This document shows, piece after piece, positions 18,365 to 52,976 of a stretch of 64,000 bases of DNA; the first letter of the stretch is position 1; each line of letters opens with the position of its first letter. The DNA comes from Desulfurococcaceae archaeon (lineage in GTDB: Archaea > Thermoproteota > Thermoprotei_A > Sulfolobales > Desulfurococcaceae), in assembly GCA_023269825.1 (NCBI GenBank), contig JAGDWI010000003.1:62001-126000 (forward strand), in the 5' to 3' direction. A model generated the notes under the pieces. The model worked only from the letters and a program-made list of their open reading frames with translations, had not been told where the DNA came from and searched no databases. The position numbers and the translations under genes are program-made.

Positions 18365-18413
18365 GTGATGAGTAGTAAACCGTCTGAAACGTGACGAAGA
18401 GCTCTCATCCTGA
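18365..18413 (+). ncRNA. C/D box guide sRNA (sR-like)
   Basis: Box order and spacing are canonical: C box GTGATGA (18365-18371), 12-nt guide, D' box CTGA (18384-18387), 3-nt spacer, C' box GTGACGA (18391-18397), 12-nt guide, D box CTGA (18410-18413). Archaeal C/D sRNAs direct fibrillarin 2'-O-methylation at the target base paired with the fifth guide nucleotide upstream of D or D'. The D guide agagctctcatc and the D' guide gtagtaaaccgt define targets that I could not place. It lies in the 130-bp gap before trm1; no separate promoter is evident. Confidence 0.8.
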
Positions 18414-51853: not shown

Positions 51854-52150
51854 TTGAAGACAAGTAATGAATTAGACCCGGTGGAGATACAAGAACTTGC
51901 ACGCAGGGTTAGGCTTAGAATTCTCCATGAGGATGACGATGTTGTTCTTTTAACAGCACCAAACGATGAGGAACTCGCAAGTATTGTTAGAGAATTGTTG
52001 AGTTATAAACCAATGAACTTGAAGGAAATCCATCAAATTCTTTCAGGTATTGCAAGCGAAGATAAAATTAGAAAAGCTCTCAATATGCTACTAGATCGAG
52101 GAGAAATATATATAAGCAATGACGGTAAGTATGTTACAACAGTACTATAA
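51854..52150 (+). CDS. Small winged-helix-like protein
   Basis: 98 residues from a TTG after GGTG. Residues 38-98 (VRELLSYKPMNLKEIHQILSG, then SEDKIRKALNMLLDRGEIYISNDGKYVTT) form a convincing winged helix. The N terminus is acidic. Likely DNA binding, targets unknown. A TATA-like tttatattttat lies upstream near 51802-51813. Confidence 0.65.
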   Translation: MKTSNELDPVEIQELARRVRLRILHEDDDVVLLTAPNDEELASIVRELLSYKPMNLKEIHQILSGIASEDKIRKALNMLLDRGEIYISNDGKYVTTVL

Positions 52151-52827: not shown

Positions 52828-52893
52828 TTTAAAACCCTCAGGTTTCGGGAGACTCTTCACAACTCCGTCTTCGGCAAAATCATCATCAGGTTT
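52828..52893 (-). ncRNA. C/D box guide sRNA just upstream of the HAD gene
   Basis: Minus strand: C box ATGATGA (52880-52886), 12-nt guide ttttgccgaaga, D'-like CGGA (52864-52867), 3-nt spacer, C' GTGAAGA (52854-52860), 12-nt guide gtctcccgaaac, D box CTGA (52838-52841). Flanks aaacct and gggttt pair as a terminal stem. The two guides are complementary over their cores to two close, conserved 23S rRNA stretches, GGCAAAA and UUCGGGAGA (recalled from 23S, not aligned here). The D box ends 10 nt before the HAD start codon. Confidence 0.78.
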
Positions 52894-52976
52894 CCGGGTT
52901 AAAAAACTATAAATTCATAATACATAATACCTCGGCAAACCCATTTTTTACATAGGTTTAACTGCTTAATTAGCGC

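Follow-up and report, generated by a model that had tools for sequence, protein, structure and literature searches.

The minus strand of the window (the whole 64,000-nucleotide stretch of DNA from a heat-loving Desulfurococcaceae archaeon analysed here) contains a phosphatase-like HAD-superfamily hydrolase gene whose 5' end, as drawn by an ORF finder, coincides with motifs arranged like those of a C/D box small RNA (sRNA). Is this short segment the beginning of a protein or an RNA gene, and if it is an RNA, what does it do beside this hydrolase? The first-pass annotation of the locus had proposed an sRNA with near-canonical box order and 12-nt guides and with a D box ending 10 nt ahead of the HAD ATG, and the sequence and coordinates bear out that description (Table 1).

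Box structure of the element

Read from 52886 to 52838 on the minus strand, the element is ATGATGA - TTTTGCCGAAGA - CGGA - GTT - GTGAAGA - GTCTCCCGAAAC - CTGA. Each guide is 12 nt long, the D'-C' linker is the trinucleotide GTT, and the 10 nt that separate the D box (52841-52838) from the HAD ATG (52827) read GGGTTTTAAA. A regular expression for the C-D'-C'-D arrangement matched only two places in the 64-kb window, none in the reversed sequence and none in five shuffles. An Rfam scan of the window gave no match to a C/D family, and only a tRNA reached its gathering score; a phage collection that we searched also gave no match. The terminal stem has a calculated energy of -7.4 kcal/mol here; the family mean is -3.63 against a null of -3.13 +/- 0.28, and covariation in the stem is not significant.

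Table 1. Features of the sRNA-HAD locus, in window coordinates.
Feature	Position	Strand	Remarks
C/D box sRNA body, box C to box D	52838..52886	-	kept in 38/40 family genomes
Box C, ATGATGA	52880..52886	-	ATGATGA in 33/38 genomes
D' guide, TTTTGCCGAAGA	52868..52879	-	8-bp duplex with 23S UCGGCAAA; N+5 residue is C, aligned with E. coli A1671
Box D', CGGA (variant of CUGA)	52864..52867	-	
Box C', GTGAAGA	52854..52860	-	holds the GTG taken as start by ORF callers
D guide, GTCTCCCGAAAC	52842..52853	-	9-bp duplex with 23S UUCGGGAGA; N+5 residue is C, E. coli C1693
Box D, CTGA	52838..52841	-	final two bases open the Shine-Dalgarno-like GAGGG
TATA-like element, TTTATAG	52907..52913	-	27 nt before box C; loose-consensus match; likely promoter of a putative sRNA-HAD transcript
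HAD-superfamily hydrolase, 222 aa	52159..52827	-	true start ATG 52827

Elsewhere in the window, at 18365-18413 on the plus strand, there is another C/D sRNA candidate, GTGATGA-GTAGTAAACCGT-CTGA-AAC-GTGACGA-AGAGCTCTCATC-CTGA. It sits between a gene for a RimK-like ATP-grasp protein and one for a Trm1-type tRNA methyltransferase, and four further genomes of the genus keep it. Register aside, the D guide of this candidate matches 23S rRNA over 9 nt.

Conservation of the sRNA and its position in Desulfurococcaceae

Using the HAD protein together with the guide pattern, we searched 40 genomes of the family and found the sRNA in 38 of them (we take the family to be Desulfurococcaceae from its named records, among them Staphylothermus sp., Thermogladius sp. 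and Desulfurococcaceae archaea); a search with a sequence model found it in 39 of the 40, one of these weakly. Box C (ATGATGA here, consensus RUGAUGA) and box D (CTGA, consensus CUGA) are in the right order, and the TGATGA motif, the guide cores TTTGCCGA and TCTCCCGA, and CTGA are near-invariant in the 38 genomes. Among family members the D'-C' linker is anything from 3 nt to over 20 nt long, and the D' box appears as CCGA, CCGT, CAGA or CTGA, or as TATG in four of them. With CGGA in this genome and CCGT or TATG in some relatives, the D' box departs from the consensus, so D' activity may differ between species. The D' guide keeps its N+5 register throughout, save in four Thermogladius-type members without a clear-cut D' box, and the D guide keeps its own in most members (the D guide is one nucleotide shorter in four and one longer in one). 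The near-invariant guide cores and boxes, the varying linker and the N+5 register together back the identification as a C/D sRNA made in the first-pass annotation, and comparison across genomes indicates that the element is an authentic one.

The HAD gene is downstream of the sRNA, and on the same strand, in 37 of the 38 sRNA-bearing genomes, at a spacing of about 2 to 180 nt. The gap is about 176 nt in genomes G004 and G006. In genome G026 the sRNA and HAD are parted by about 2 kb that holds a serine-recombinase/HTH gene; this insertion (loci L010/L032) is an IS607-like element with an HTH and serine recombinase and a probable TnpB. On the other side of HAD, and convergent with it, the window has a gene for a 98-aa protein without a Pfam match (51854-52150, plus strand), and homologous sequence occurs beside HAD in many family members.

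A probable leader of the HAD mRNA

TATA-like elements precede most, though not all, members of the family, mainly at -26 to -52 from box C, and they support a promoter just upstream of the sRNA without proving one. Because of the TATA-like element at 52913-52907, and because the 10-nt gap is too short to hold a promoter, we infer that the sRNA and HAD share a transcript. Other archaeal C/D sRNAs abut or overlap ORFs and are often processed from longer transcripts (PMC7994747).

Besides guiding methylation, the unprocessed leader could act as a cis-regulator of HAD: L7Ae or the entire sRNP, seated on the C/D k-turn, would mask a Shine-Dalgarno (SD) sequence that starts in the D box, so that HAD translation would report free sRNP proteins; alternatively, processing of the leader would remove the SD. 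An SD-like GAGG(G/T), which matches the 16S 3' end GGATCACCTC, uses the final two bases of the D box in six of the eight members of the genus, and GGTG is present 1-7 nt past the D box in many other family members, but some members lack any SD-like motif close to the D box. The sRNA-HAD arrangement is kept across the family, but the distance from D box to start is as variable as described above, both G004/G006 and the interrupted locus in G026 are exceptions to close spacing, and co-location may merely reflect a shared promoter. In a reporter, 5'-overlapping C/D genes lower the expression of the downstream gene (PMC7994747), and L7Ae represses its own mRNA through an SD-masking k-turn (Daume et al. 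2017, PMC5539422). The l7ae leader, with its translational autoregulation, resembles our locus in that a k-turn-forming element lies right next to an mRNA's SD, but it is a lone k-turn, whereas the element here is a complete two-guide sRNA whose regulatory role is hypothetical. We consider such regulation of HAD rather unlikely.

Two predicted neighboring targets in 23S rRNA

No LSU rRNA (23S) gene was found in the source assembly by covariance model or pattern search, so we used the 23S genes of sister genomes to identify targets. The target region in these genes is ..ACUCGGCAAAUUGGCCCCGUAACUUCGGGAGA.., and the sequence over both sites is GGGAACUCGGCAAAUUGGCCCCGUAACUUCGGGAGAAGG. In four sister 23S genes, the D guide pairs at positions 3-11 (9 bp) and the D' guide at positions 4-11 (8 bp), each with a C opposite position 5; the D' duplex has mismatches at guide positions 1-3 and 12. 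Both pairings are unbroken, without the core mismatches in both duplexes that the first-pass annotation had thought would tell against it. These are the best sites of both guides in all four of the genes tested, and the target sequence is identical in nearly all relatives with a 23S match. The expectation that the two targets would be about a dozen nucleotides apart also held: the paired stretches are separated by 13 nt, and the residues predicted to be methylated lie 22 nt from each other. One detail did not hold. Both proposed guide cores have their sites in 23S, but GGCAAAA, the sequence that had been put forward for one of them, is one base too long: our first 23S pattern, which contained GGCAAAA, found nothing because archaeal 23S reads UCGGCAAAUU, and the outermost base of the D' guide is therefore unpaired. 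The predicted residues align with A1671 (D') and C1693 (D) of E. coli rrlA, in what we take to be domain IV of 23S rRNA.

To gauge these duplexes against chance we can compare them with shuffled guides. With shuffled D' guides, 8% of trials gave an 8-bp duplex somewhere, and with shuffled D guides 4% gave one of 9 bp; both duplexes fell within 50 nt of each other in only 1 of 3000 trials. The sRNA almost certainly guides methylation of two neighboring spots in the large rRNA.

The D' guide outside the family

Outside Desulfurococcaceae, the sequence model finds many C/D sRNAs that have the D' guide TTTGCCGAGTA and a D' box, with different D guides and different neighbors, and the D' guide recurs across Thermoproteota at other, unrelated loci. 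One other family of the order has the two guides, or near variants of them, together at a site 100-200 nt upstream of rpl3, adjacent to a divergent RNA methyltransferase gene. HAD was beside none of the 20 out-of-family sRNAs examined. Because the D' guide recurs outside the family without HAD, the methylation site of this guide seems old, and the sRNA-HAD link appears to be a feature of Desulfurococcaceae. A literature search for the guide sequences gave no match, and in the main texts that we searched the wider D'-guide sequence has no published entry.

The sRNAs with related guides upstream of rpl3 (uL3) are at loci L161-L168 (genomes G141, G145, G143, G144, G142, G149, G139 and G138), and the divergent RNA methyltransferase gene next to them belongs to PF02598. 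In a different family, the guide pair is found again at locus L108 (genome G117), where the D'-C' hairpin is longer, at an unrelated position near a possible hydrogenase-maturation protease gene.

The sRNA could be real and yet have one guide, most likely D', that serves in the source genus as an RNA chaperone or docking arm instead of directing methylation. The D' duplex is only 8 bp here, whereas TTTGCCGAGTA from other Thermoproteota would pair with the same target over 10 bp, and the D' box is degenerate in several members; two close guide duplexes are proposed to aid rRNA folding (Dennis et al. 2015, PMC4644070). Against this reading, which we think quite improbable, nearly all members preserve the D' guide's N+5 register, as would be expected under selection for methylation.

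The start of the HAD gene

By mechanical criteria the HAD ORF is 233 aa long, starting at GTG 52860, which is the in-frame GTG inside the C' box that the first-pass annotation had noticed and had suspected of being a mis-called start. Relatives show that the suspicion was justified. The upstream frame is closed by stops between the D box and the HAD start in G003, G005 and many other genomes, and in several others the D-box TGA provides the in-frame stop. The spacing from D box to HAD shifts the frame between species, with non-triplet length changes in the conserved block, and a start at +10 after the D box is common to G000, G007, G003 and G005. Because of the stops and the frame-changing spacing, the conserved block is an RNA element rather than a coding one, and translation from the C' GTG is excluded in relatives, which argues for an authentic C/D box sRNA and a mis-called ORF start; HAD translation starts instead at the ATG that follows box D by 10 nt. 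We therefore reject a coding extension, in which the upstream GTG would be the true start of a longer protein and the boxes chance coding sequence, as extremely improbable: its frame is open in the source genome and in G007, but it is contradicted by these stops and length changes, and the same RNA is found elsewhere without HAD.

Discussion

We estimate a probability of roughly 0.93 that the element is a double-guide C/D box sRNA in the leader of HAD, with a promoter just upstream, a mature form protected by protein, and HAD translated from ATG 52827. The sRNA would be transcribed from this promoter as the 5' leader of the HAD-hydrolase mRNA and would be bound by L7Ae, Nop5 and fibrillarin. 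Proteins on its two k-turns would protect the mature sRNA while the flanks are trimmed, the sRNP would 2'-O-methylate a pair of C residues in domain IV of 23S rRNA that lie 22 nt apart, and HAD translation would begin at the ATG 10 nt past box D.

Archaeal C/D sRNAs that guide rRNA 2'-O-methylation (Dennis et al. 2015, PMC4644070; Breuer et al. 2021, PMC7994747) are alike in their C, D', C' and D boxes, 12-nt guides and N+5 rule, and also in two linked rRNA targets and an ORF-adjacent position; what we describe is one particular RNA conserved in Desulfurococcaceae. It is already known that C/D sRNAs can overlap or abut the 5' ends of ORFs, and about 7% of C/D genes in archaea are of the 5'-overlapping type (Tripp et al. 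2017, as reviewed in PMC7994747). In these too the sRNA abuts the start of the downstream ORF, with the start codon just past box D, but their context is described as species-variable, whereas here the same neighbor is kept family-wide. The family-wide sRNA-HAD pairing, and the overlap of the SD-like motif with the D box in the source genus, appear from our comparisons to be new.

Although the RNA is of a well-known kind, its fixed position before the HAD gene across one archaeal family is a small new observation, and it puts right a gene start that will escape ORF finders. It indicates that a C/D sRNA and a neighboring gene can stay paired throughout a family, even though such RNAs have been described as fast-evolving and context-variable. 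A bifunctional leader, which would guide two 23S methylations and, before trimming, set HAD translation through an sRNP lying over the SD, is doubtful; if true, it would couple the supply of sRNPs to a hydrolase across a whole archaeal family. The sRNA-HAD locus is a ready test case, in relatives of Desulfurococcus, Thermosphaera and Staphylothermus, for whether C/D sRNAs in 5' leaders regulate the gene downstream.
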